DNA of 42,971 nt, from positions 1-42,971 of the forward strand of contig QHRX01000200.1 of assembly GCA_003221455.1 (NCBI GenBank), in the 5' to 3' direction. The notes beneath the pieces are model-generated. The model worked only from the letters and a program-made list of their open reading frames with translations. It was not told the DNA's origin and made no database searches. Shown piece after piece: positions 6,909-22,145 of this stretch. Positions within the stretch are counted from its first letter, which is position 1; each line of letters begins with the position of its first letter. This DNA is from Candidatus Rokuibacteriota bacterium. GTDB taxonomy: Bacteria; Methylomirabilota; Methylomirabilia; Rokubacteriales; CSP1-6. Made by a program: the position numbers and the translations under genes.

Positions 6909-7301
6909 TTAGCAGTTACCGGCGCATTGCGCGCGCAACGTCTCGAAGGTGGTACTTTGGGTCGCGCCCGAGCCGCTCGGCCAGGTCACCGTCAGGGTGA
7001 TCCGAGCCAGCCCATTGGGCGACGGGGTCGCCCCGACCGTCGCGATCGTCCACGACCGCGTCACGCCGGGGGCCGGGCTATCCGATCCGGTGGCCGGTCC
7101 CGGATTGAACGGTTGGTTTCTGAGCTGCTCGAAGAGCTGTCTCCCCACTTCCGTCGCGGTCGATTGGCCTCCGCTGAACACCACGCTCAGGTAGCCGGCC
7201 GTGACCGAGTTCATCAGCGCAAGGATGCCGACCACGAGAATCGTGATCGCGATCAGGACTTCGATGAGCGTCATGCCGCGTTCGTCTCGCCAGGCTGCCA
7301 T
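6909..7301 (-). CDS. pilV: Type IV pilus minor pseudopilin, PilV-like
   Basis: Prepilin motif ERG|MTLIEVLIAITILVVGILALMNS; start placed at ATG 7301 within a longer ORF; last gene of a four-gene cluster. Confidence 0.85.
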   Translation of the reverse strand: MAAWRDERGMTLIEVLIAITILVVGILALMNSVTAGYLSVVFSGGQSTATEVGRQLFEQLRNQPFNPGPATGSDSPAPGVTRSWTIATVGATPSPNGLARITLTVTWPSGSGATQSTTFETLRAQCAGNC

Positions 7302-7309
7302 TGGTGGCC

Positions 7310-9106
7310 CTAACTCCGCGCCCATCGGCCCTTCTGCATGACGACGCCCTTCGGCGTCCCCGGAGGAATCGTGGTATCGAACAGGGTGTCGTAGCTCCAG
7401 TTCCGCACGGGGGCATTGTAGTAGACGCCCGTGTTCTGCCAGGGCTGCGTCACCTGCTGGCTGTGCCAGAGGTTGACCAGGGACCCGGAGTAGTTGATCG
7501 TCACGCCGCTCCAGTTCTCGAGGAACCGGATGTCGTTCTCGAGCTGACCGTTGCCGGCACCTGACGTGGACTCGTTGCTCGGGCCCGTGGCGATGGCCGC
7601 GTTCACGGAGGTCGCCGTCGGGGTTCGCGAGCCCAGCGTCGAGCTGCTGGTCGCGGCGTTGGCGTCGCTCCAGTTGTTCGACAGCACGGTCACCGCATCG
7701 GCCAGGACCGCGGCCGGCGATTGGGTCGCGGGGAGGCCCGGGTTGTAGTCCCCCTGGATATACACGGGATTCTGCGACACGACCGTCAGGCCCTTGGTCG
7801 GCAGCGTGGTGGTCCCGGCGTTCGCCCCGTTCACCAGCCGCACCGCGGGGCACGCGAGGGTCTTGTTCGAGCTGCACGGCGTCGACGGGCCGAAGCTGTT
7901 CGTCGTGGACGCCACGTAGACCATCCCGTTCCAATTGGTGAGACACCCGCTCGAGCAGGACCCTCCTCCCGAGACCGGCACGGCCGTGTTCAGCTTGCTG
8001 ACGTCCACCTGCGTGACCGCCATCATCTGGCCTTCGCGGGAGTCGAAGAAGGTGCTGGTCGTGGTAATCGTGCCGGCCGGCAGCGTCACGGGGTTGCCGT
8101 TCTGGTCGGTCGCCACGCCGTTCACGATGCGGAGGTCCGCCTGCGTGTAGAGTTTCGCCGCCGTGAGCGCGGAGGAGTCGCCTACCAGGGGCATCTCGAT
8201 CAGCGTGTGGGCCTGCTTGTCCGGGTTACAGGGGTTGTTGAACAGCGACGGCACTGGCGGCGTGATCTCGGTGATCCCCATCGCGCTGTCCTTCACCATG
8301 CCCCCGAAGGTGCTCTGGGCTTGGGCCTGCCACTGGGAGGCCGTCCAGCTGCCGGTGAAGTTTTGCTTGTCGACATGGTCGAAGTTCAACGTCTTGTAGA
8401 CACCGTTGGCGTTCATGATCTGAGGGTTGCCGTTGAGCCCCTCCACGCCGCTGCTCTTGATGGTGCGGTAGATGTTCCCGGCCGTCGCCATGCGCGAGTT
8501 GACCTGGAGCGTGGCACCGGGCGCCATATAGATATTGCTGTTCGCGAAGATCGGCCCGTTCAGCGTCATGTTCGCGCCGGGGGCGATCTCGAGATCCACG
8601 CCCTTGCCGTAAAACACGGCGAACTGGAAGAGGGGCACCTGGATGTACTGGAAGACCTGGGTGAGGCTCGACTGGGTGCCTCCCGCCGCCGCGACCTGGG
8701 CGGCGATCTGATAATCCGTCGCGATGCCCTTCATGCCCGCGTAGGGACCGGTCGCGATCTGGATTTGATAGGGCGCCGGGCTCAGCTGTGTCACCGAGTA
8801 GGCGCTGAAGCTGAGGCCGGGGCTCGTGAGCGTCGGCGCCGTGATCGTGGCGAGCTGCGTACCCGTCGGCGCGGGGGTGCTCACCAAGAGCGCCCGCAAT
8901 CCGACCACCCCCGACTCGAGCCCGCCGTCGGCGGCGTAGAACGCCTTGCTGTAGTCCTTCCAGTTCGCCGACGACGCGACCTCGGTCGTGCCGAGGGTCA
9001 GCAGCGTGAGGCCCAACACCGACAGGGCCGCCAGGATGACAAGAGAGAGGACCAAAGCGTAGCCGTGTTCGGCTCTCAGCAGGTGCCGTGCTTGAAGTCG
9101 CGTCAT
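7310..9106 (-). CDS. PilX-like pilus assembly protein (large)
   Basis: About 598 aa; N-terminal GYALVLSLVILAALSVLGLTLL plus AFYAADGGLE, typical of PilX-type proteins; start ATG 9106. Confidence 0.8.
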   Translation of the reverse strand: MTRLQARHLLRAEHGYALVLSLVILAALSVLGLTLLTLGTTEVASSANWKDYSKAFYAADGGLESGVVGLRALLVSTPAPTGTQLATITAPTLTSPGLSFSAYSVTQLSPAPYQIQIATGPYAGMKGIATDYQIAAQVAAAGGTQSSLTQVFQYIQVPLFQFAVFYGKGVDLEIAPGANMTLNGPIFANSNIYMAPGATLQVNSRMATAGNIYRTIKSSGVEGLNGNPQIMNANGVYKTLNFDHVDKQNFTGSWTASQWQAQAQSTFGGMVKDSAMGITEITPPVPSLFNNPCNPDKQAHTLIEMPLVGDSSALTAAKLYTQADLRIVNGVATDQNGNPVTLPAGTITTTSTFFDSREGQMMAVTQVDVSKLNTAVPVSGGGSCSSGCLTNWNGMVYVASTTNSFGPSTPCSSNKTLACPAVRLVNGANAGTTTLPTKGLTVVSQNPVYIQGDYNPGLPATQSPAAVLADAVTVLSNNWSDANAATSSSTLGSRTPTATSVNAAIATGPSNESTSGAGNGQLENDIRFLENWSGVTINYSGSLVNLWHSQQVTQPWQNTGVYYNAPVRNWSYDTLFDTTIPPGTPKGVVMQKGRWARS

Positions 9107-9156
9107 AGTCTTACTGCCCTCCGTCTGTCGTAGGTTGAGCGGTCGACCGGTCGTCG

Positions 9157-9978
9157 TCACGGGAGATTCCTCGGCCGAACGTAGGTCGTCACCGTGAAGC
9201 TACGGGCGTTGCAGGGATTCGGCGCCGTCGATTGCGCCGTCATCGTGATCGCCACCCGCCGAATGTTGGCGAGATTGGCCGAGAGATTCGACGTGAGGAT
9301 CGCGGTGTCCGTGGTGTCGAAATAGCTGAACTGCTGCACCTGCACCCCCGTGGCCAGCGTCTGCGGCCCCGTCCCGTCGCCCGGATCCTTGGACAGCGTG
9401 TTGCCCGCCCACGAGTAGGTGACCGGCAGCGGCCGCCCGACGACCGCGCCCGCCGGGTAGGCGTTCGCGAGCCCTGTCCCGTTGAGGGTAATGGTCGGGC
9501 CCACGATGGTCTTGACGGTCTGGGTCTCCGAGGTGCTGCCGCTGCTCAGATAGAGCGAATCGCTCGGGTTGATCCCCAGACCGCCCGCCACCGTGAGGAT
9601 CTTGGTCCCGGCGGCCGCCGCCGTCGAGAGCGTGGTCGACACGTTGTTGAGATCGGCCCAGAAGGTGATCGAGGTCTGACTCGCCCCCGTGACCGCGGTC
9701 AGCGCCGGCGGGTAGCCATAGCCCACGAGCCGCAGATCCTCTTCCATCAGCATCGCGGTCCGCGCCGACTGCTGGGCCTGCGCCTGGTTCTCACCCGTGA
9801 CGAACACCGTGTTGCTGCTCACCTGGACCCCGACCAGCGCCGCCATCACCAGCCCCATGATCGCCATCGTCACGAGCAGCTCGGTGAGGGTGAACCCCCG
9901 GCGGTCATGCCACGCCGCCGCGAGGCCGCGGTGAGGTCGGGGGAGGCTGGAGCGCCGTTCGTGGGTGACCATCGCCAT
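9157..9978 (-). CDS. pilW: Type IV pilus minor pseudopilin, PilW-like
   Basis: Prepilin motif RRG|FTLTELLVTMAIMGLVMAALVG; start ATG 9978 (in-frame ATGs also at 9972). Confidence 0.85.
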   Translation of the reverse strand: MAMVTHERRSSLPRPHRGLAAAWHDRRGFTLTELLVTMAIMGLVMAALVGVQVSSNTVFVTGENQAQAQQSARTAMLMEEDLRLVGYGYPPALTAVTGASQTSITFWADLNNVSTTLSTAAAAGTKILTVAGGLGINPSDSLYLSSGSTSETQTVKTIVGPTITLNGTGLANAYPAGAVVGRPLPVTYSWAGNTLSKDPGDGTGPQTLATGVQVQQFSYFDTTDTAILTSNLSANLANIRRVAITMTAQSTAPNPCNARSFTVTTYVRPRNLP

Positions 9979-9983
9979 CACCC

Positions 9984-10517
9984 CTAGGGAATCGTGACCC
10001 GGCCCGGGGCCGTCACGCTCACCGTCCGGCTGCCCCCGCCCTGCGCCGTCACCGTCAGGGCTCCGGTTTGACTGGCGTTGCCGAACGGGGTGAAGATCGG
10101 ATTCGTCCCGCTGTTGGTCACCGTGAAGGAATTCGGAGAGGGGCGGAAGGTTCCCGTGGAGTCCGTGCCCGGGCCCGTCCACACCGTGCCCGCGCACCCG
10201 CCCTGCACGAACTGATACCCCCCGGACACGACCTTCACGCAAATCGTCTGGCGCGTGCTCATCGCGAGCATCTTCGCCCGCATGAGCGAGCCCTGGATCT
10301 CCCGCGCCCCCCAGGTGACGGTCGCCCCGGGAAGGGCGCTCAAGAGCCAGGGAACGGCGGCCGCCCCCATGATCCCGATGATCGCGATCACCACGACGAG
10401 TTCAGACAGGGAATAGCCCCGGCAGCTCCCCGCGGTGCCGGCGAGCGTCGAACGGCCAGGCTCTGCCGTCCTGCTGAGACCGGAGATCGGTACCGCGACT
10501 GCGCCGACGTTTTCCAT
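9984..10517 (-). CDS. Type II secretion/type IV pilus pseudopilin, GspH/FimT-like
   Basis: Prepilin motif CRG|YSLSELVVVIAIIGIMGAAAVPWLL; first gene of the pseudopilin operon. Confidence 0.87.
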   Translation of the reverse strand: MENVGAVAVPISGLSRTAEPGRSTLAGTAGSCRGYSLSELVVVIAIIGIMGAAAVPWLLSALPGATVTWGAREIQGSLMRAKMLAMSTRQTICVKVVSGGYQFVQGGCAGTVWTGPGTDSTGTFRPSPNSFTVTNSGTNPIFTPFGNASQTGALTVTAQGGGSRTVSVTAPGRVTIP

Positions 10518-10530
10518 CGCGTAGGTGACA

Positions 10531-10547
10531 GTGCACGAACGATGCCC
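10531..10547 (-). promoter_or_regulatory. Candidate sigma54 (-24/-12) promoter of the pseudopilin operon
   Basis: Minus-strand GGGCATCGTTCGTGCAC; GG-N10-GC spacing; matches two other sites in the window. Confidence 0.5.
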
Positions 10548-10610
10548 GTTAATAATTTGGGTGCGCGTCGTCTAACATGTCTAATTCAAATCGATTTTCG
10601 GCCTCTATCC

Positions 10611-10635
10611 GCAGCCTGCCAGATCGGCAGGCTGC
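10611..10635. promoter_or_regulatory. Perfect dyad (candidate enhancer/UAS) upstream of the pseudopilin operon
   Basis: gcagcctgcc-agatc-ggcaggctgc, 10-bp perfect inverted repeat centred about 102 bp upstream of the predicted +1. Confidence 0.45.
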
Positions 10636-11067
10636 CGAAATGGCAATTCGACCCGCCCCCACGGAGCCAGATCGTCACGGCTCGCCGTCGGTGTCGCGGG
10701 CTCCGCGTTGGCCCCACGGGGCTCAGGGATTTCGGATACGGGAGCGGGGGAGGAGGAGCGGAAAGCCCGTCTGAACCCATTCCGTGGCGTCGAGGTGTTC
10801 CGGCCCGCGCATGCTGAGGCGCGCCCGCCGCCGCCAGGACACCTTGTGCGAGCACGGGGCGAGGCGCGTGGAACGACGAACCAGTCGACGCGAAGCGCCG
10901 ATCAGTCGAAGGCCTACAGGGCGGCGGTCAGCCGCGGCGTGGCGATACGGCAGCGAGACGAGCCGGTGCGCGTGAGGCGTGGCGGCGGACCGGGACGGAG
11001 GCTCGAGTCGGGCGGGGCCGCGACGACCATGACGATGCCGCTGGTCGAGCGCTCTTCGGCGTGGCCG

Positions 11068-12285
11068 TCATCCAGTCGCGACCGATCGACCGGCGGAAAG
11101 CGAGCTCAGCCGGGCCAGGGGACGCATCGCACGCTTCAAGAACGCCTGCGTGAACTCGGCGCCGTCGAGGGCAACGTCGCGTCGAACGCGCTGCTTGTTC
11201 ATCGCTTCGAGAAGCGCCTCGGCCAGGCGGTCGGGATCGAGGTCCCCAAGCGCAATGGTGTCCGCCAGCCGTCGCTCGGCGAAGCGCTGGGCGCGGAAGA
11301 CCTGGTCGCCCACGTGGGTGCCCGGGACGAGCAAGGCAGGGACGCTCGTGCCGAGAATATCGGTGCAGGTGTTATATCCGGCCCTGCTGACCGACAAGGC
11401 CGTCCCGCGGAGCCGGCACAAGAAATCATCCGAGAAGGGTCGCACGTCGAAGGGCCCCCCGGCAGAGAGTTCCCGCAGGTGGCGGCAATCCTCTCTCGGC
11501 GTGAACGGTCCCAGAAAGAAGACCATCCGTCGATCACCGACGTCTCCTCGCGCGACCAGTCTTCTCCACGCCGCCGCACTCGTCGACATGAGTTCGAGCG
11601 CGTCGATGCCGCCGCCCGCACTCACGACAACGTCGCCCGAGGAGAGATCCTGGGTCCGGTCGGGCGCCGGGGATATCGGCGCCTTCCGGGCCACATAGCC
11701 CGTATAGACGACGGGCACCTTGATCGACGCGACGTCTGGGAAGTGCTCTTCGAGTCGAGTAATCCGCTCGTCGCCGTGCACGAGGACGTAGTCGAAGTAC
11801 TCATTCAGGGTGGCGGCAATCTTCTCGCACTCACCGCGCGTCCGCGGCCGACGGGGGACATCGCGCACGCTGCAACACACGAGAAGCTTCGGGTTCAGCC
11901 GTCGCGCGCGGACGATGGCGCCGACGATCTCGTCGCTGAGCTCCCACCGCTGGAACGGGAAGTATTCAATGACCAGCACATCCGCGGCGAATCGGCACAC
12001 GGCCGCATCGAGCGCCATCTGGCGCTTCCTCAGGACGGCCGTGATCGGCTCGCCGTCCGCCGCGGCAAGGCGAGAGGTTCGTATGTCCCGATAGACTGGA
12101 GGGAGCCGCGTGACGCCCACCCGTGGAGGCAGGGGAGCCTCGGCGACGGACCGCCCGCCATCGATGAGGTGGACGTCGAAGTCGACGCTTAGAGTTCGCG
12201 CGATTTCCCTGATGCGGACGGAGTGACCCACCCCGACCAAGCCCTGGGCGTACAGAAGAACTCGGGGCCTTCCCGTCTCGATCAC
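11068..12285 (-). CDS. Predicted glycosyltransferase (COG4671/MurG-like GT-B fold)
   Basis: RPRVLLYAQGLVGVGHSVRIREIARTL N-terminus and RAGYNTCTDILGTSVPALLVPGTHVGDQVFRAQRF donor-site region; start probably GTG 12285, not the ORF-track start 12576. Confidence 0.8.
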   Translation of the reverse strand: MIETGRPRVLLYAQGLVGVGHSVRIREIARTLSVDFDVHLIDGGRSVAEAPLPPRVGVTRLPPVYRDIRTSRLAAADGEPITAVLRKRQMALDAAVCRFAADVLVIEYFPFQRWELSDEIVGAIVRARRLNPKLLVCCSVRDVPRRPRTRGECEKIAATLNEYFDYVLVHGDERITRLEEHFPDVASIKVPVVYTGYVARKAPISPAPDRTQDLSSGDVVVSAGGGIDALELMSTSAAAWRRLVARGDVGDRRMVFFLGPFTPREDCRHLRELSAGGPFDVRPFSDDFLCRLRGTALSVSRAGYNTCTDILGTSVPALLVPGTHVGDQVFRAQRFAERRLADTIALGDLDPDRLAEALLEAMNKQRVRRDVALDGAEFTQAFLKRAMRPLARLSSLSAGRSVATG

Positions 12286-13426
12286 GACCCTGCCCCCATG
12301 CGCACGTTGGCTTCCTGCCCGGCCTGATCGAGGCTGGCCCCTCCAGAGAAGCGCCAGGAACTTCTCCGTGCGAGGATGCGGGAACCTCGGGAGTCGTCCG
12401 GGCTGCTTCGGCCCCGCGTGCAGGAGATCAACGAAAGAGTCACCGGCTTTCCGCCTGGCTCGCTGGAGCAAGACTCTGTGGTTCTCGTCTGCACCGCCGC
12501 CTGCCCTCCACCCCACCGCATGCGATTTTGAACCTCTGCCCGCCGAGCAAAATGCACGCTGGAGTTCAGGAAGCACAGCCTATGCCAAGGCCGGCAGTAA
12601 CTCGTGAACAGGTGAAGACCTTGATTTTTCCAGATCCGTCACACTCTTCAGATTCGCCACGACTGGAGAGCTCTCCGCATTCGCTGCCAATCTGGTCCGG
12701 CCGGGACACAATGGCAGGCGCGGGCGTCAATCCGGCGACCGCACTACAAGATTTGAGCGTGGCCGACGAGGAACCGCTCAGACCGGCCGCGAGCGAGCGG
12801 ATCCAGCGCGGTGTCGCGCGGCGGGCGCCATCCCTCGATCAGTCAGGCTCCACGCCGAGATCCGGACGCGTCGTTGCCCTTGGCCTCGCACGGCGGAGTT
12901 CCCCCGGCTGTCACCTCCGAGCGGGCCCAGCCCCCTCCGGGTCACTTCTTCCTTCGTCGCACCGCTCGAAGGCATGAACGCCGTGCGGAGACACATGGCG
13001 AATCGGAGGCCCGCCGGTCGAGAGCGTGTCTGCGGCGCACGGCCGCCACGTCGGTCTCGCTCGTGGTCGTCCGGAATTGGCGGGGGGCCGACTCGGAGTG
13101 CCGACCGCGGTCCCGTCCCGACGAGCGGGAGTGACGGCTAACCCGCGGCTCCACGATGCTCGCGCGCGCCGATTCCGGCCTTCGGAATCTCCGAGCGGCG
13201 TCGTCGACGACCGGCCGGATCGCGAGGGTCAGCCGGACGGTGTTGGGGAGTGGGCTACCTTCCGATCACGAGCGGTTGTCCCCTGGGGCATCCGAGGTCC
13301 GAGACGCGCGCGCCCCGGCCTGTGATCAGTCAGGCCGAGGGGGCGCGCAGCTGAGTCTCGATCTGGTAAGCCTTGATCCCGCGCGAGCCGGACGCCGCCC
13401 GCTCGAGAGATCGTACGCTCGAGGGT

Positions 13427-14065
13427 TCACAGCATGCGACAGCGGTCGACGACATACCCCTTGGGACGCCTGCGCACAACCTTCCCGCGAATTGTCACGC
13501 TGGAGTTCGGCTGCAGCTCCGCATCCGACAAGCACCACGCGAGAATCCGCATTCCCTCGCTATCCGTGAATTCGATGCCCAGCAGGTGGTCCGCCCGTGA
13601 GGTACTCTCGACCATGCCGCTCCACGTGACCTCGCGATTCTGGGCGTATCGATTGAACGCTAGGGCGCCTTCGGGATGGGATTGGAGCCAGTCGTCAAGC
13701 TCCTTCGCGGAAAAGGTCATGGGGAGAGGCGCGACCGTCTCGTCACCGCTCCGCGCGACAGACGCTGGCGCGGGCGACGTCGTTGGTGAGCCGCCTGTCG
13801 ACGCGTCGTGGCGCGCGGGTGGCCGAGCGGACGCGGGTGCCTCGCTGACGACGGGTGGCCGCGTGAGATAGTGGTACCACCCAGCGGCTCCCACCAGGGC
13901 CGCGGCGATCACCGCACTCTTTGTCATCCAGCCGCGCCGGCGAACCGGCTCGGCCTTCGTCGGCCCTTGCCGAGCTTTGCGGGGCCCGCCGGGGACCTGT
14001 CGCGCCCCATAGACAGTTCCCCAACCTCCCGGACTTGGCCGTGCCGGACGTCTCTCGGAAGCCAT
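13427..14065 (-). CDS. Hypothetical protein with N-terminal TM segment and OB-fold-like C-terminal domain
   Basis: 212-aa ORF; TM (SAVIAAALVGAAGWYHYL), Ala/Pro linker, then WSGMVESTS...VTIRGKVVRRRPKGYVVDRCRML resembling tRNA_anti-like OB folds. Confidence 0.55.
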   Translation of the reverse strand: MASERRPARPSPGGWGTVYGARQVPGGPRKARQGPTKAEPVRRRGWMTKSAVIAAALVGAAGWYHYLTRPPVVSEAPASARPPARHDASTGGSPTTSPAPASVARSGDETVAPLPMTFSAKELDDWLQSHPEGALAFNRYAQNREVTWSGMVESTSRADHLLGIEFTDSEGMRILAWCLSDAELQPNSSVTIRGKVVRRRPKGYVVDRCRML

Positions 14066-14422
14066 CGAACCTTTAGAATGTTAGCGCACGCCGCGGCGAT
14101 TCGGGAACTTCGTGGAGCAGACGTCGACGCGGTCGGCGCGGAGCGTGATCGCCTCGCCGGCCGCAGCGAGGGCGACCGTGAGGCCGGCGCTCCATCCGAG
14201 AGCGAAGGCGGTCGAGCTGACGCCGAGGGCGGCCTTCGGAGCGCGGCCTTCGAACCGGCCGACGGCGCAGGCTGTCACCTGCGAGGGCGGCGGCGGACTG
14301 AGAATTTTTGACGCCTTCGCTGTCCGAGGTTGATGCTTGCTGACGGGTCCGGGCAGTCGCCTCCAACTCGGCTCGACTGCAGAGCTGAGGTTTCTCAGTA
14401 TCTTCTTGCCGGGGCCCCAGGG

Positions 14423-14439
14423 TGGCGTCAGTTATGCAC
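14423..14439 (+). promoter_or_regulatory. Candidate sigma54 (-24/-12) promoter of the collagen-like gene
   Basis: TGGCGTCAGTTATGCAC; GG-N10-GC; predicted +1 near 14449, leaving about 43 nt before ATG 14492 with SD ggagga. Confidence 0.55.
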
Positions 14440-14491
14440 GGCGTCCTGGTGGGCCGGCTCGGCCTTCGTTCGCAGCTTGAGGAGGACGTCT

Positions 14492-15154
14492 ATGTCGCGA
14501 GCACTGCGGAACGGAGGGGTTGGACGGGCGGCCACGGTCCTTGCCGGGGTGATGATGCTTTCGCTTATGGCCCAAGGGACAGCCAAGGCCGAAGACGACG
14601 AGAGCCACCGACAAGGCCATTCACGCCATCAGCAGTCGAGCTGGCTCAGGACAGGCCCGCCAGGGCCCGCAGGACCGCCAGGACCGGCCGGGGCACAGGG
14701 GCCTGCTGGACCTCAGGGGCCTGCCGGACCGCAGGGAGCCACGGGGCCGCAAGGGCCGCCAGGCGATCCGGCCGGGCTGCTCGTTGACAGCACCGGCAAG
14801 ACCATCGGGACGTTGGTGGACTGTTGCGACGTTCTCGTGAACACCGCCTCCGGTCCGGCCTTGCTGATGGTCGACTCCACCGGGTTTCAGTCAAACGGAG
14901 AATTTTATTTCGTCGAGGACACCAGTAATGGCTGCCACGGTACGAAGTACCTGATCGCGCAGGGCGTCTTTTCGACAGACGTCGTCGACAAGATCAACGG
15001 CACCGTGTATGTTGCGACAAGCCCTCAGAAGCTCACGATGCACTCGCTGACGTTTAATGGCGCCGGCTGCCAACCAACCAGCCAGACGGCAATGTTCGGC
15101 CCCGCGGTGCCCGTGACGATCTCAGGATTCACGCCGCCGTTTTCGGTGAAGTAG
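14492..15154 (+). CDS. Secreted collagen-like protein
   Basis: ATG 14492 with SD gaggagga; hydrophobic N-terminal signal-like segment, 13 uninterrupted Gly-X-Y triplets, unique C-terminal domain. Confidence 0.85.
14654..14770 (+). repeat. Collagen Gly-X-Y repeat tract (13 triplets)
   Basis: Translation [39 protein letters not shown]. Confidence 0.9.
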
Positions 15155-15170
15155 CGTACCAGGCGATTGG

Positions 15171-15198
15171 GAGGGCGACCCTGATGGCGGTCGCCCTC
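15171..15198 (+). terminator. Terminator-like hairpin after the collagen-like gene
   Basis: gagggcgacc-ctgatggc-ggtcgccctc, 10-bp stem 16 nt past the stop; followed by tcgttccct, only a weak T-tract. Confidence 0.5.
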
Positions 15199-15216
15199 GT
15201 TCCCTAGGTGGGCGGT

Positions 15217-15249
15217 CCACGAGCGCCGAGCATCCCTCGGCGCTCGTGG
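15217..15249. repeat. Perfect 14-bp inverted repeat (second hairpin)
   Basis: ccacgagcgccgag-catcc-ctcggcgctcgtgg. Confidence 0.8.
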
Positions 15250-15383
15250 TGCGTTCGCCCGCGGTGCCCCGCACGAGCGGTCGCCCTCAACCGCCGGCGT
15301 GTCGAAGCTAGAAAGCCGGCACACTCACCGAGAAAGGTTGACACACGGGCACCTCTCTCGTCATCTTGTCCGGGAGCCATTCC

Positions 15384-17135
15384 ATGCCCGCGCCGCCCCA
15401 CTCCCTCCCGCAGGACGTCGGGTCGGGCGCCCACTCGTACGGGCCCCCCGCCGCGCTGATCGGCGCCGGCCTCTGCGCCGCGACGTTCTGGGTCGCGAGC
15501 GAGGCGGCGAACCACTACGTCATCCTCTACGGGCGCCACGGATGGGCCCCGCCGGAGGTCGCCTTCCTGCTGAACTTCGTCCTTCTTGGGTTGCCCTGCG
15601 CCGCGCTCCTGACGACGGCCCTCGCCCGCTGGTGGGGTCCGCGCCTTGCCGCCGACTTCGCGCGTCTGGCTGACGTCCCGCCGCGGACCGCGCACTGTGC
15701 CGCGGGGCTCGCCGCGCTCTTCGTCGGCGCCCTCATCGCGCTCGCGCGCTACGGTCTCCTCCGCAACACCGCGATCACGGACGACGAGAACGTCTACGAC
15801 TTCATGGCGCGCATGTGGGCGGGCGGGCATCTCTCCGTCCCGTCCCCCCCGCCGGAAGTGCGGGCCTTCTTCGAGAACCAGTTTGTCGTGAACGACGGGC
15901 GCTGGTACGGAATCTACGCCCCGGGGCATCCCGCCGTCCTCACGCTCGGCCAGTGGCTCGGCGGGATCCACTGGGTCACCACCGTCGAGGCCGTCCTCAC
16001 CGTGCTCTTGGCCTGGTGCCTCGCCGATCGCGTGTTCGGCCGGCGCGCCGCGCTCCTGACGCTCGGGCTCCTCGCCGTCTCGCCCTTCTTCCTCCTGGTC
16101 TCGGCGACGATGCTCGCGCACGCGACGGCCGCCCTGGCGCTGACCGCCTTCGCGTACTCGGCCGTCCGCGCCCTCGAGGCGCCGGCCGCGAAGTGGTGGT
16201 GGCTCGCCGCCGGGTGTGCGCTCGGCGGGGACGGCCTGACCCGCCCCCTGTCGGCGGCCGCCTTCTCCCTTCCCTGGCTCGTCCTCCTGGCCCTCACGGT
16301 GCGCCGCGACCGGCGGGCGGTGCCGGGCGCGGCGCTCTTCCTCCTCGCCGGCGCCGTCGCGGCCGCCCTGTTCGCCGGCTACAACGCCGCCGTCACCGGC
16401 AGCCCCTTCCGGACCGGCTACCAGGTCTTCGCGGAGAACTACCGCTTCACGTTCACGCTGGGCTCCCTCCCGGCGGCGGCGCCGGTGGCGGCGCTCTACG
16501 AGCTCTACTACACTCTCGCGCGTCTGAACTTCTGGCTTCTCGGGTGGCCGGTCTCGCTTGCGCTCATCCCCTTCGCGGGCCGGGCACCGGCGAGCCTCGC
16601 GCTCGCCCTCGGCGCCCTCGGCACCGTCGTCGCATACGCGACGCTCCGGATCCCCAGCATCAACGTGGTGGGTCCGGTCCACTACGGCGAGCTCGTGGTG
16701 CCGCTGGTCGTGCTCACGGCGGGCGGCCTCGAGCGGCTCGCGCTGCGGGCGGAGCGGGTGCTGGGACGCCCCGTGTTCCTGTGGGTGCTCAGCGCCCCCG
16801 CGGCGCTCACGGTGGTGGCGGTCGTCTTCTTCTGGCCGGTCTACGCCCCGTCCCTACGCCAGATGGCGAACGTCGCGCGGGCACCCTACGATCTCGTGGA
16901 GCAGGCGGGTCTCGACAACGCCGTGGTCTTCGTGGAGAGCCTCCCCGCGCTCGAGGCCATGCCGGGCGCGTGGGTCTACCGGCACCGGAACAGCTCTCCC
17001 GACTTCTCCGATCGCGTCCTGTTTGTCAACGACCTCGGGTCCCTGGACGCGCGGCTGCGCGCGTGGCTCCCCGGCCGCAAAGCCTACCGCATGAAGATGG
17101 AGGGTGGCCGGCTCGGGCTGTCGCCGCTCCCATGA
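15384..17135 (+). CDS. Glycosyltransferase family 39/ArnT-like integral membrane protein
   Basis: ORF 15366-17135; many TM segments and an early luminal acidic motif (TDDENVYDFMARMWAGGHLS); ATG 15384 or upstream TTG 15366. Confidence 0.75.
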   Translation: MPAPPHSLPQDVGSGAHSYGPPAALIGAGLCAATFWVASEAANHYVILYGRHGWAPPEVAFLLNFVLLGLPCAALLTTALARWWGPRLAADFARLADVPPRTAHCAAGLAALFVGALIALARYGLLRNTAITDDENVYDFMARMWAGGHLSVPSPPPEVRAFFENQFVVNDGRWYGIYAPGHPAVLTLGQWLGGIHWVTTVEAVLTVLLAWCLADRVFGRRAALLTLGLLAVSPFFLLVSATMLAHATAALALTAFAYSAVRALEAPAAKWWWLAAGCALGGDGLTRPLSAAAFSLPWLVLLALTVRRDRRAVPGAALFLLAGAVAAALFAGYNAAVTGSPFRTGYQVFAENYRFTFTLGSLPAAAPVAALYELYYTLARLNFWLLGWPVSLALIPFAGRAPASLALALGALGTVVAYATLRIPSINVVGPVHYGELVVPLVVLTAGGLERLALRAERVLGRPVFLWVLSAPAALTVVAVVFFWPVYAPSLRQMANVARAPYDLVEQAGLDNAVVFVESLPALEAMPGAWVYRHRNSSPDFSDRVLFVNDLGSLDARLRAWLPGRKAYRMKMEGGRLGLSPLP

Positions 17136-17175
17136 CCGCCGGGCGGCGACGCGCCGTGGACCCGCGGGGCGCGGT

Positions 17176-18108
17176 TCAGACTGAGGGGGCGACCGCCACT
17201 GGGGCCTCGGCAAGGGCGACGACGATGACGGCCCCGGTGTCGCCGGCGGCCGCGCCGCGCCCGGAGGCGCTCTCGGCCGTCGTGAGCCAGCCGACGCACG
17301 GGACCTCGTGGCCGACTCGGTCCCGGATCGCAAGCCATTCGTCCCGCGCCGTCCCGCCGAGAGCGGCGTAACGGGCCGCGCTCTCGGCGACCAGCGCCAC
17401 CCGCACCGGCTGCCCCTCGAGCCGTTTGACCGCCACGGCGGCCGCCTCGGCGGCACCGTGCAGAAGCATCGTCGCGTCGGACTCGCCGGGGCCGGCCGCG
17501 CCCGCGACGCCCACGCCGCTCTTGTAGGCGCCCTCGAGGCACAGCACGGCGAGGTTGCCGGGTTCCGCGGCGCCCTGCCCGCACAGCGGCCGTCCGGCGG
17601 CGCTGATGACCGTGCGCAGCTTCGGGCCTGCCAGGTGCCGCCAGCGGACCAGGAAGGCGTCCGTCAGCGACTCCGTGACCGGCGGCGCAAAGGCGAGCGC
17701 GACGCCGCGGGGGAAGTGACGTCGCTCGCTCGCGCCGGCCAGGACGAGCCGACCGACCCGCTCGGTGGCCGCCGAGAGCCCCATCGGACGCCCGGCACAG
17801 ACGACGCTCGGAGACAGGGCGTCACCGTAGAAGCACATCACCGCCGCTCCCGCCGTCAGAAGACCCGAGTCCGTGAGGATGCCGCTCACCGACGCGCCGG
17901 CCACCGGGGCCCCGCCCGCGGACGCGCGGGCGACCTCCCCGAGCCCGGGCACGCCCGTCCCGCCCGTGACGAGAATGAGGGCCGCCTTCGGCAGCTGGTC
18001 CCCGGCCGCGCGGCGCGCGGCCGCTGCGGCTTCCTCGATGGCCCGGAGCGGATCACTACCCTCCGCGACGCCCAGCCAACCCCTGATCATCATCGCGCAA
18101 GCTCCCAT
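17176..18108 (-). CDS. FIST-domain-like protein
   Basis: 310-aa ORF; ALILVTGGTG...VAGASVSGILTDSGLLTAGAAVMCFYGD pattern resembles FIST_N/FIST_C proteins; start could be an internal Met. Confidence 0.6.
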   Translation of the reverse strand: MGACAMMIRGWLGVAEGSDPLRAIEEAAAAARRAAGDQLPKAALILVTGGTGVPGLGEVARASAGGAPVAGASVSGILTDSGLLTAGAAVMCFYGDALSPSVVCAGRPMGLSAATERVGRLVLAGASERRHFPRGVALAFAPPVTESLTDAFLVRWRHLAGPKLRTVISAAGRPLCGQGAAEPGNLAVLCLEGAYKSGVGVAGAAGPGESDATMLLHGAAEAAAVAVKRLEGQPVRVALVAESAARYAALGGTARDEWLAIRDRVGHEVPCVGWLTTAESASGRGAAAGDTGAVIVVALAEAPVAVAPSV

Positions 18109-18208
18109 TCCGGCTCCGCCGCGAGGCGTTTGGGCGCCGGAAGAACATGGGTGAGCAGCACGCGCGGGAGCCCGCCGCTCGGCGAGCGGGGCCCCGCGCA
18201 GCGCTCCG

Positions 18209-18601
18209 CTACGAGCGGAGCGCCTTTTCCACGACTTCGCCGATCACGCGGTGCGAGGCCGGCTTGTGCGCGTAGAAGAGCAGGCCGACCTTGCGTGCCT
18301 CGGCTTCGAGTTCGGGCCGATGGTCGTTGGTCGTCATGACGACAGGCAGCGCCGGCTCGATGGCCTTCAGGCGCGCCGCGAGCGCCGTTCCCGGCATGTC
18401 GTTCAGGGCGACGTCGATGATCGCGAGGCTGATCCGCCGGGAATTGGCGACGAGGACGGCTTCCTCGCCGAGCGGGGTCTGGTAGGCGCGAAAGCCCTGG
18501 CGGGTGAAATGATTGGCCAGGCGACGCGCGGACAATCGGTCGGCGTCCGCGACGAGGATCCAGCCTGAATCAGGCTGACGTTCCGGTGCCTGGCGACCCA
18601 T
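18209..18601 (-). CDS. Single-domain response regulator receiver protein
   Basis: 130-aa ORF; DAD acidic pocket, IIDVALNDMPG phosphoacceptor, MTTND Thr and HKPA Lys; no output domain. Confidence 0.85.
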   Translation of the reverse strand: MGRQAPERQPDSGWILVADADRLSARRLANHFTRQGFRAYQTPLGEEAVLVANSRRISLAIIDVALNDMPGTALAARLKAIEPALPVVMTTNDHRPELEAEARKVGLLFYAHKPASHRVIGEVVEKALRS

Positions 18602-18614
18602 GGCAACCCGGTCG

Positions 18615-18631
18615 GTGCACGCGGGATGCCA
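18615..18631 (-). promoter_or_regulatory. Candidate sigma54 (-24/-12) promoter of the lone receiver gene
   Basis: Minus-strand TGGCATCCCGCGTGCAC; GG-N10-GC; same distance to ATG as the pseudopilin site. Confidence 0.5.
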
Positions 18632-18775
18632 CGAATTAACTAGCTGATATTATTTACTTTTTATGGATGGGCGGAGAGGCTCTAGGACCGGATGGCACGA
18701 AAACAGAGATCGAGGGGCAAGATTGGCACGGTCAGGAGGAGGGGGCACGAGGTCGCGCGGACCGGACGACGGACG

Positions 18776-20122
18776 CTACAGAAGCCCGTACTCTTTGAGC
18801 CGTCGATAGATCGTCCGACGCGAGAGCCCGAGAGCGCGAGCCGACTGCTCCTTGTCGTTCTTGTGCAGGGCCAGTGCCCGCAGGATGAGCTCTTTCTCGA
18901 CCTCGGCGAGCGTGGGCAGGGAGTGGGTCGAGATCGGCGTGGGCCGGGCCGACAGGGTGAGGCTCGGCAGATCCGTCAGCGAGATGTGATCGCGGGCCCC
19001 CATGGCATAGGCCCGCTCGATCAGGTTCTCGAGTTCGCGGACGTTGCCGGGGAAGTCGAAGGCCTGCAAGGCGGCCAGCGCCTCTGGCGCGATACCGCTC
19101 ACCTCCCGCCGGAAGCGCTGGTTGAACCTGCGGAGGAAGTGAGCGATCAGCGCCGACAGGTCGTCCTTGCGCTCCCTGAGCGGCGGCATCTGGACCCGGA
19201 CGACGTTCAGCCGGTAGAAGAGGTCCTGTCGCAGGCTGCCGTCCTTGACCGCCTCCTCCAGGTTCCGGTTCGTGGCGGCGATGACCCGCACGCTCACCGT
19301 GTACGCTTTCGTCGACCCGACCGGGCGCACCTCCATTTCCTGGAGCACCCGCAGGAGCTTGGCCTGGAGGGCCGGCGGCAGCTCAGCCACTTCGTCCAGG
19401 AAGATCGTGCCGCCGTGGGCCGAGCGAAACAGCCCGACGGAGTCTGAGACGGCCCCCGAAAAGGCGCCCCGCACGTGACCGAAGAACTCTGACTCAAGCA
19501 GCTCCGCGGGGATCGCGCTGCAGTTGACGGGGATGAACGGCCCCTTGGCGCGCGCAGACAGGCGGTGGATGGCGGCGGCGACGAGCTCCTTGCCCGTCCC
19601 GCTCTCTCCCTCGATGAGGACGGGCGAATCGGTCACGGCGACCTTGCCGATGACGTCCTTGATGCGCTGCATGGCGGGTGAGCTGCCGACCAGCTCGTTG
19701 ACGGCGAGTTGCTCGCCGAGCCGGCTCCGGAGCGCGTTCACCTCCCGGCGGAGGAAGCGACGCTCCATCAGGCGGGTCATGAGGTGGCGGAGCTCGTCCA
19801 TGATCAGGGGCTTGGGCAGATAGTCAGAGGCGCCCTCTTTCAGCGCCTCGACCGCGGTTGACACGGTCGGGTACCCCGTCATGATGACGACCTCGATGGA
19901 CTCGTCCTGCCGCTTGACCTCCCGGAGGAAGGTGAGACCATCCATCTCGGGCATCCGGATATCGACCAGCGCGGCGTCGAAGAGCTGGCCCTGCATCGCG
20001 TCGAGTGCCTTCACCCCGGTCCCGACGCAGGTGACGTGATAGCCCCAGGCGGTCAGGGCCTCCTTGAGGAGCATTTGGATCGACTCCTCGTCGTCCACCA
20101 CCAGGATTTTGGGTGCTTCCAT
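18776..20122 (-). CDS. Sigma54-dependent NtrC-family response regulator
   Basis: Receiver (VVDDEES, VDIRMPEMDG, KP), AAA+ (GESGTGKE, GGTIFLDEV), GAFSGA loop, C-terminal Fis-type HTH (SARALGLSRRTIYRRLKEYGLL). Confidence 0.95.
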   Translation of the reverse strand: MEAPKILVVDDEESIQMLLKEALTAWGYHVTCVGTGVKALDAMQGQLFDAALVDIRMPEMDGLTFLREVKRQDESIEVVIMTGYPTVSTAVEALKEGASDYLPKPLIMDELRHLMTRLMERRFLRREVNALRSRLGEQLAVNELVGSSPAMQRIKDVIGKVAVTDSPVLIEGESGTGKELVAAAIHRLSARAKGPFIPVNCSAIPAELLESEFFGHVRGAFSGAVSDSVGLFRSAHGGTIFLDEVAELPPALQAKLLRVLQEMEVRPVGSTKAYTVSVRVIAATNRNLEEAVKDGSLRQDLFYRLNVVRVQMPPLRERKDDLSALIAHFLRRFNQRFRREVSGIAPEALAALQAFDFPGNVRELENLIERAYAMGARDHISLTDLPSLTLSARPTPISTHSLPTLAEVEKELILRALALHKNDKEQSARALGLSRRTIYRRLKEYGLL

Positions 20123-20260
20123 CGGCTCCTCCGCGCCGAACAGGCGTCATCTCGACACTAGCATAGTGGGGTGTCATAGTGACAAACAATAACGGGCCGA
20201 CGCCGAGGGAGGAGATTGCGCTAAGTTGACCAATATGTTAGCGTTTTGCGGGAGGTCCTT

Positions 20261-20609: not shown

Positions 20610-22145
20610 ACGTCAGCCGGGGCCCAGATCCCCTCTCTTTCGCCGTCGCGGGATGAGTTCCGCGGCCTTGCCACCAGGGGCAACCTGATCCCGGTCTACG
20701 CCGAGCTGCCGGCGGACCTCGACACGCCCCTGTCGGCCTTCCTCCGGCTCAGGCCGGGCCCGTACGGGTTCCTGCTCGAGTCGGTGGAGGGCGGCGAGAA
20801 GTGGGCCCGGTACTCGTTCCTCGGCACCGACCCCTTCATGGTTCTGACTGCGAAGGACGGCCGGCTCGCCCTCCGGCACGCCGACGGGAGGACGGGACGG
20901 CTGCCGCCGGGCAACCCGCTCACCGCGCTCCGGGAGCTTCTGGCGCGTTTTCATCCGGTGGCGGTCCCCGGGCTGCCCCGCTTCCAGGGCGGCGCCGTGG
21001 GCTACTTCGGCTACGATGTCGTGCGGCACCTCGAGCGCCTGCCCCGGTCGACGCGCGATGACCTCGGCCTCCCAGACGCGGTCTTTCTGCTGACCGACAA
21101 CCTCCTGGTCTTCGACAACCTCCGCCACCGCCTCCTCGTCATCGCGAACTGCCACGTCGACAAGACGGACCCCGCCGCGCTCGACCGGGCCTACGACCGC
21201 GCCGCCGTGAAGATCGGGATGACGCTCGCGAAGCTCGGCCGGCCGGCCCGCGTCCCGGCGCCGCTCACGCTCCCGGCGCTCGACCCGCTGCTCGCGCTGG
21301 ACGAGGAGGGCTTCACCTCGTCGATGGACGAGAGCGCCTTCACCCAGGCCGTGCGTCGGGCCAAGGAGTACATCGCGGCCGGCGACGCCTACCAGATCGT
21401 CCTGTCGCGACGGCTCGACTGCCGCCTCGAGAGCGACCCGTTCACGCTCTACCGCGCTCTCCGGACGATCAACCCGTCTCCGTACCTCTTCTACCTGCGC
21501 CTGGGCCAGACGACGATCGTGGGCTCCTCGCCCGAGGTGCTCGTTCGCGCCGAGGACGGCCGGGTCGAGGAGCGGCCGATCGCGGGAACCCGGCCGCGGG
21601 GACGCTCGGACGACGAGGACGCACGGATCGCCGCTGAGCTCAAGGCTGACCCGAAGGAGCGCGCGGAGCACGTGATGCTCGTGGACCTCGGGCGCAACGA
21701 CGTCGGGCGCGTGGCCGAGCTCGGCTCCGTGCGCGTCACGGAGTTCATGACGATCGAGCGGTACTCGCACGTCATGCATCTCGTCAGTAACGTGGTGGGG
21801 CGGCTTCGGCCGGGCGCCGACGCGCTCGACGTGCTCTCGGCGTGTTTTCCGGCGGGCACGGTGACGGGCGCCCCCAAGATCCGCGCGATGGAGATCATCG
21901 ACGAGCTCGAACCCGCCCAGCGCGGGCCCTACGCGGGCGCGGTCGGCTACGTCTCGTACTCCGGCAATCTCGACTCCTGCATCACCATCCGGACGATCGT
22001 CTGCCACGGCCGCCGCGCGTCCGTCCAGGTGGGGGCCGGGATCGTGGCCGACTCCGACCCCAAGGCGGAATGGAACGAGACCTGCTCCAAGGCCCGCGGG
22101 CTCGTGCTCGCGTTGCGCATCGCCGCCGCTGGAGCCCGGTCGTGA
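20610..22145 (+). CDS. trpE: Anthranilate synthase component I
   Basis: ORF track starts at GTG 20784, but in-frame upstream codons encode typical TrpE N-terminus ([36 protein letters not shown]); no stop back to 20588; ACG 20610 is 6 nt after GGAGG. Exact start uncertain. Confidence 0.9.

Follow-up and report, generated by a model that had tools for sequence, protein, structure and literature searches.

The window analysed here is contig C14 (42,971 nucleotides, GC about 69%) of the 4.41-Mb draft genome of Candidatus Rokubacteria, an uncultured soil bacterium. It encodes an NtrC-family enhancer-binding protein (18776..20122, minus strand) with no kinase gene beside it. This orphan activator is proposed, with a probability of about 0.72, to be autoregulated and to run a sigma54 regulon made up of a receiver-FIST operon and a minor pseudopilin operon, separate from the PilS-PilR-pilA system. 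The three are connected by palindromes conserved upstream of the activator gene and of both operons. A preliminary description of the window had placed the pseudopilins, a collagen-like protein and the receiver in one local regulon of this activator, arguing from three similar 17-nucleotide sequences (17-mers). That interpretation is partly supported. For two of the three genes its outline is correct, but on grounds other than those it offered, and the collagen-like gene has no palindrome. Nor is the regulon local: outside the window's genome, the pilin genes and the activator gene are usually on different contigs or widely separated.

The comparisons covered 57 genomes of the family, and scans of the window's own genome were by pattern matching only. 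A matrix for the activator site was built from the palindromes upstream of the receiver/FIST and activator genes of other genera, with the window's genus excluded, and was run across the whole 43-kb window. The p values for individual segments come from shuffles of the upstream segment. The genome encodes rpoN (one match, E 5.9e-61), and a scan of the window against Rfam gave no match.

The activator and its palindrome

The activator has a receiver domain, an AAA+ domain with a GAFSGA loop (GAFTGA in some orthologs), and a Fis-type helix-turn-helix (HTH). Its Walker A and B motifs are GESGTGKE and GGTIFLDE. The protein is matched at E <= 1e-150 in 47 of the 57 family genomes, and a relative of the same genus encodes an activator 92% identical to it. 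The gene and a thioredoxin-trpE-trpG-thiL block are usually arranged divergently, and the lack of an adjacent kinase gene, already pointed out in the preliminary description, was confirmed in the window and in the relatives examined.

A TGTCA-N3-TG[AG]CA-type palindrome (TGYC-N5-GRCA) is present upstream of the activator in 18 of 18 loci, including the window. The window copy, TGTCACTATGACA (20172..20184, unstranded, sequence read on the minus strand), has the highest score of any position in the window (18.4). It overlaps a putative -35 box, as it appears to in the other loci, and autoregulation of the activator is therefore likely.

The receiver-FIST operon

The single-domain receiver (18209..18601, minus strand; Response_reg) is the first gene of a pair, which the preliminary description did not mention. 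The second gene (17176..18108, minus strand) encodes a FIST-domain protein with a weak FIST_C match below the cut-off, and orthologs at the same place carry full FIST_N and FIST_C domains. The phosphorylation residues of the receiver (acidic pair, phospho-acceptor D, T, and K) are conserved in its orthologs, and there is no output domain.

The predicted sigma54 promoter of the operon lies at 18615..18631 on the minus strand. The sequence TGGCAN7TGC is found at the same place just 5’ of the start in all 24 loci with a receiver ortholog, the window included, and the -24/-12 bases are kept while the flanks have diverged. The upstream neighbour of the receiver ortholog is the activator ortholog or a paralog in most of the 24 loci. 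An inverted repeat (TGCCACGGCGGCA, TGTCAGTTCTGACA, and variants) is usually located in the intergenic segment, 65-100 bp upstream of the -24 element of the receiver.

Receiver orthologs were not found in the genomes of genus g2 or genus g8 or in G032, where only weak generic receiver matches occur. The receiver is therefore an optional component. In genomes lacking it, the gene immediately after the activator is FIST; it is preceded by that same promoter, and a palindrome begins 66 bp ahead of the -24 motif. Whichever gene comes after the activator, receiver or FIST, the TGYC-N5-GRCA palindrome is conserved in front of it. In a background check of 305 genes from the window and neighbouring loci, promoters were scored within 120 bp of the start. 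A score of at least 14.5 was reached by 15 genes, 12 of which are receiver or FIST genes following this activator or its paralog.

The minor pseudopilin operon

The pseudopilin operon is about 8 kb from the activator and is composed of four consecutive genes on the minus strand. These are a GspH/FimU-type minor pseudopilin as the first gene (9984..10517; Pfam GspH and N_methyl), a PilW-like pseudopilin (9157..9984; N_methyl, TIGR02532), a PilX-like pilus assembly protein (7310..9160; PilX_N), and a PilV-like pseudopilin (6909..7316; N_methyl, with TIGR02523 pilV at 40 bits against a cut-off of 52.2). The N-terminal methylation motifs together with PilX_N identify the set as type IV pilus minor pseudopilins, described as pilus-tip genes.

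A sigma54-type (-24/-12) promoter at 10531..10547 (minus strand) precedes the operon. Upstream of it are two predicted activator sites of the form TGCC-N5-GGCA, both unstranded. The proximal site (10617..10629, score 15.1) is 82 bp upstream of the -24 element, and the distal site (10633..10645, score 14.7) is 16 bp from the proximal one. They rank second and fifth in the window; two matches in coding sequence, at 21150 and 38149, take third and fourth place. The proximal site has p = 0.0005, and none of 2000 shuffles produced two such sites as found upstream of this promoter.

The promoter is kept as CGGCATCGTTTGTGCAC in a second copy of the operon on contig C331, in which the first pseudopilin gene is 89% identical, and [CTG]GGCACACGCCTTGCTC-type sites precede pseudopilin orthologs in several genera. 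Activator-type sites before pseudopilin operons were found in the C331 copy (p < 0.003), G032 (p 0.03), G013 (p 0.005), and G027 (p 0.003). In genus g12, the pilB genes of G035 and G037, identified with Pfam, also have an activator-type site (p 0.005).

Several further observations concern these genes. The second first-pseudopilin gene, at C331:1088-1618 (L065, L277), lies beside PilW/PilX-like genes, with promoter and enhancer as in the window; this copy is either a paralog or derived from a second strain in the assembly. The g12 pilB genes (T2SSE and MshEN domains; L235 3051-4790 and L236 3-1637) have a promoter identical to that of the receiver (TGGCATCCTCCCTGCA) and an activator-type enhancer. 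A putative membrane-anchored protein of no known family is encoded at 13427-14065 (minus strand) of the window, and its homologs are located beside the pseudopilin gene in C331 and G032. Matches of the TGGCCCTTTCCTTGCAG type before the pilins of some relatives were discarded, as they fall inside the coding sequence of an upstream prepilin-peptidase-like gene.

The three 17-mers and the extended promoter motif

The three 17-mers of the preliminary description are present with the sequences, coordinates, and strands it gave: GGGCATCGTTCGTGCAC at 10531-10547 (minus), TGGCGTCAGTTATGCAC at 14423-14439 (plus), and TGGCATCCCGCGTGCAC at 18615-18631 (minus). Each has the invariant GG-N10-GC and fits the TGGCA..TGC consensus upstream of a gene, with the exception that the first base of the pseudopilin site is G rather than T. 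With rpoN present and the sites placed before orthologs as conserved sigma54 promoters would be, the sigma54 reading of the description holds up.

The shared pattern KGGCRTCN4RTGCAC occurs three times in the window against 0.02 expected from dinucleotide shuffles. It has four matches in the whole genome, against none for the reversed control pattern, and three of the four fall within 8.1 kb. Across the 57 genomes there are 49 matches against 31 for the reversed control, so many of the matches elsewhere are chance. Because the sites already in view were used to write the pattern, the match count alone overstates significance. Conservation is the better test, and neither conservation at orthologs nor the clustering of three of the four copies is subject to this post-hoc problem. 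At least three of the four copies look like true sigma54 promoters.

Worth noting is that the extension of the consensus, TC after GGCR and CAC after TG, had been taken to argue for a common regulator or a shared element. As evidence for a common regulator it fails, since the extension is also found before pilA. In the own genome, five pilA-like genes are preceded by sigma54-like sites, all of which read TGGCATC, and TGGCATCAAAGGTGCAC precedes pilA in another genus, where the pilA sites carry a different enhancer element, TGACG-N5-CGTCA. The extension is thus a trait of many sigma54 promoters in the lineage. What identifies a shared activator is the upstream enhancer, not a common extended -24/-12 sequence.

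The collagen-like gene

The 17-mer at 14423-14439 is a good sigma54-like promoter match upstream of a gene for a collagen-like secreted protein with Gly-X-Y repeats (14492..15154, plus strand; Pfam Collagen at the cut-off). Within 150 bp upstream of this gene there is no activator site (best score -0.5, shuffle p = 0.69). The C-terminal domain of the protein was found only in G033 among 56 relatives, and the ortholog there (L116) has TGGCGCTTCGCTTGCAG, a moderate sigma54 match, about 46 nucleotides before the ATG. With no activator site and one ortholog with a moderate match, membership of the collagen-like gene in the regulon is unproven. Its promoter is provisionally described as sigma54-like and assigned to another activator.

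Spacing between promoter and start codon

The 17-mers at 10531-10547 and 18615-18631 end exactly 13 nucleotides before the ATG. A start codon 12-14 nucleotides after the 17-mer is found for the receiver and pseudopilin genes of the window, a methyltransferase gene on contig C255, and most FIST genes of the relatives. Transcription from sigma54 promoters usually starts about 12 nucleotides downstream of the -12 element, and this spacing would therefore leave a leader of 3-5 nucleotides. The receivers of genera g12, g17, and g20 have a 22-nucleotide spacing or an alternative TTG. Ordinary Shine-Dalgarno leaders are found for the collagen-like gene (GAGGAGG, ATG at 14492), for pilA, and for the PilR targets in the same genomes.

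The predicted near-leaderless targets are the most unusual trait of the regulon. A wider reading, put forward tentatively and at somewhat less than even odds, is that the activator and its close paralog may form a lineage-wide sigma54 regulon. Its near-leaderless targets (the receiver, FIST, and the first pseudopilin of the window) would have a promoter fixed 12-14 nucleotides from the start codon, coupling activation to leaderless translation. No description of such a class of sigma54 mRNAs was found in a small literature search.

Further candidates in the genome and its relatives

The combined pattern of enhancer, 50-80 bp, and promoter has 76 matches in the 57 genomes and 10 for the reversed control. 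In the own genome, a looser form of the pattern is found at five places, against three for the control. The five are the pseudopilin operon of the window, its C331 copy, the C255 methyltransferase gene, a response-regulator gene on C238, and a site in coding sequence on C252. The regulon is thus small in this genome, and some of the five places may be chance.

The fourth copy of the 17-mer pattern is at C255:16233. Its promoter and enhancer TGCCCGGCCGGCA (C255:16146-16249) precede the methyltransferase gene, which adjoins a receiver gene. The same enhancer-plus-promoter architecture is found in two genera before a gene for a STAS and acetyltransferase protein (L240 2788-3777, L241). In genus g7 (L215, L222, L238, L239, L249), it precedes genes for secreted beta-propeller-like proteins, a possible lineage-specific extension of the regulon. 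Two cyclic di-GMP (c-di-GMP-I) riboswitches (Rfam RF03167) were identified on minus strands, at L031 1023-1103 and L138 2279-2360. One is just downstream of the sigma54-like site TGGCATCCGCCGTGCAC, and one directly follows the activator gene of G056, hinting at c-di-GMP control of the activator branch.

Proposed mechanism and alternative explanations

The mechanism proposed here starts from the sites, their positions, and their conservation; binding, phosphorylation, direction of regulation, and start sites are predicted from these. The activator would bind the TGYC-N5-GRCA palindrome at its own sigma70-type promoter, probably repressing it, and about 65-100 bp upstream of the sigma54 promoters of the receiver-FIST and GspH-PilW-PilX-PilV operons. 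A sensor kinase encoded elsewhere would phosphorylate it, and the activator hexamer would then open sigma54-RNA polymerase at the target promoters. Most target mRNAs would begin 3-5 nucleotides upstream of the start codon. Once induced, the receiver and the FIST protein probably modulate the signalling branch. PilS-PilR would separately control pilA.

Several observations count against this mechanism. The upstream site of the receiver in the window (18716..18728, unstranded; TGCCAATCTTGCC on the minus strand, score 3.6, p about 0.13) is degenerate where relatives have a strong one; the relative G047 has TGCCAATCTGGCA at about the same distance. Sites before the pseudopilin operons of G002, G004, and G011 are weak (p 0.08). 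The own genome encodes at least 19 proteins related to the activator, and some relatives have a second paralog. Since many Fis-type activators have palindromes of this kind, another activator could use the same site.

In one alternative, the promoters would be true sigma54 promoters, with a PilR encoded elsewhere driving the pseudopilin operon and the local activator serving only itself and the receiver-FIST operon. A PilR-like gene is indeed found just upstream of pilA-like genes on contig C177 (69% identical to a PilS-adjacent protein of G048), and control of pilin by PilR and RpoN is well known (PMC6058289). Most pilA promoters have TGACG-N5-CGTCA at about -110, and most lack a local activator-type site; where a PilS-PilR cluster was observed, they lie next to it. 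The pseudopilin promoter of the window lacks the TGACG-N5-CGTCA element (best score 5.6, p 0.075), yet it has two local activator-type sites, which makes the PilR alternative unlikely. The comparison of elements is partly circular, as some of those pilA promoters also went into the PilR matrix. It is about equally unlikely that the local activator controls all three genes, the collagen-like gene included, as a single regulon. The collagen-like promoter does fit the shared 17-mer and its G033 ortholog has a sigma54 match, but the absent activator site, the different leader, and the occurrence of the extension at pilA promoters speak against it.

Very improbable is that the sites are chance matches or some other conserved element, such as a repeat, riboswitch, or untranslated structure. 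The choice of the pattern after the sites were seen and its 49 to 31 ratio over the reversed control would allow for chance, as would the fourth own-genome match, which lies inside the longest open reading frame of a gene. That match is nevertheless conserved in G033, where a similar promoter is kept with an identical TGCCCGGCCGGCA palindrome. The preservation of -24/-12 bases across 24 orthologous loci and the empty Rfam scan also speak against this explanation, which is largely refuted for the sites at 10531-10547 and 18615-18631. The orphan activator with its own upstream palindrome is the preferred reading for both operons.

Comparison with known systems

In this analysis, an orphan activator that is widely retained in an uncultured phylum gains a target set and a predicted binding site. 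Minor pilins, and in one genus pilB as well, are linked to a signalling branch distinct from PilS-PilR, and a possible class of near-leaderless sigma54 mRNAs comes into view. No literature was found on the regulation of type IV pili in Rokubacteria, and a search on the FIST domain, sigma54, and response regulators returned no mention of FIST.

The activator has the domain order of the AtoC, ZraR, NtrC, and PEP-CTERM response regulator families of NCBIfam. It scores far under the curated cut-offs (458.6 of 714 for AtoC and 362 of 502.6 for PEP_resp_reg) and is therefore not an equivalog of these families. Identification as PilR was likewise rejected, as no kinase is near the activator in the loci examined and a PilR-like gene is located beside pilA on C177. 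The C-terminal ends of the activator and the PilR-type proteins, including the HTH, differ.

In Desulfovibrio vulgaris, autogenous NtrC-family regulons have been inferred by footprinting, one of them with the repeat yGTCA-N6-TGACr (PMC4641369). There, as in the window, a regulon is inferred from an inverted repeat before an auto-regulated activator and sigma54 promoters. The two cases differ in lineage and target genes, and also in the spacing of the repeat, whose halves TGYCA and TGRCA are separated by N3 in the window.

Another comparison is with PilS-PilR-RpoN, which controls pilA in Pseudomonas and Myxococcus (PMC6058289, PMC6211767). Both systems pair an NtrC-family activator with sigma54 promoters of type IV pilus genes. 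One difference is that the family has a PilS-PilR-pilA set in addition to this activator. Unlike PilR, the activator of the window is an orphan adjoining thioredoxin and trpE and has a different site. Its predicted targets are the minor pseudopilins, and pilB in genus g12, whereas that of PilR is pilA.

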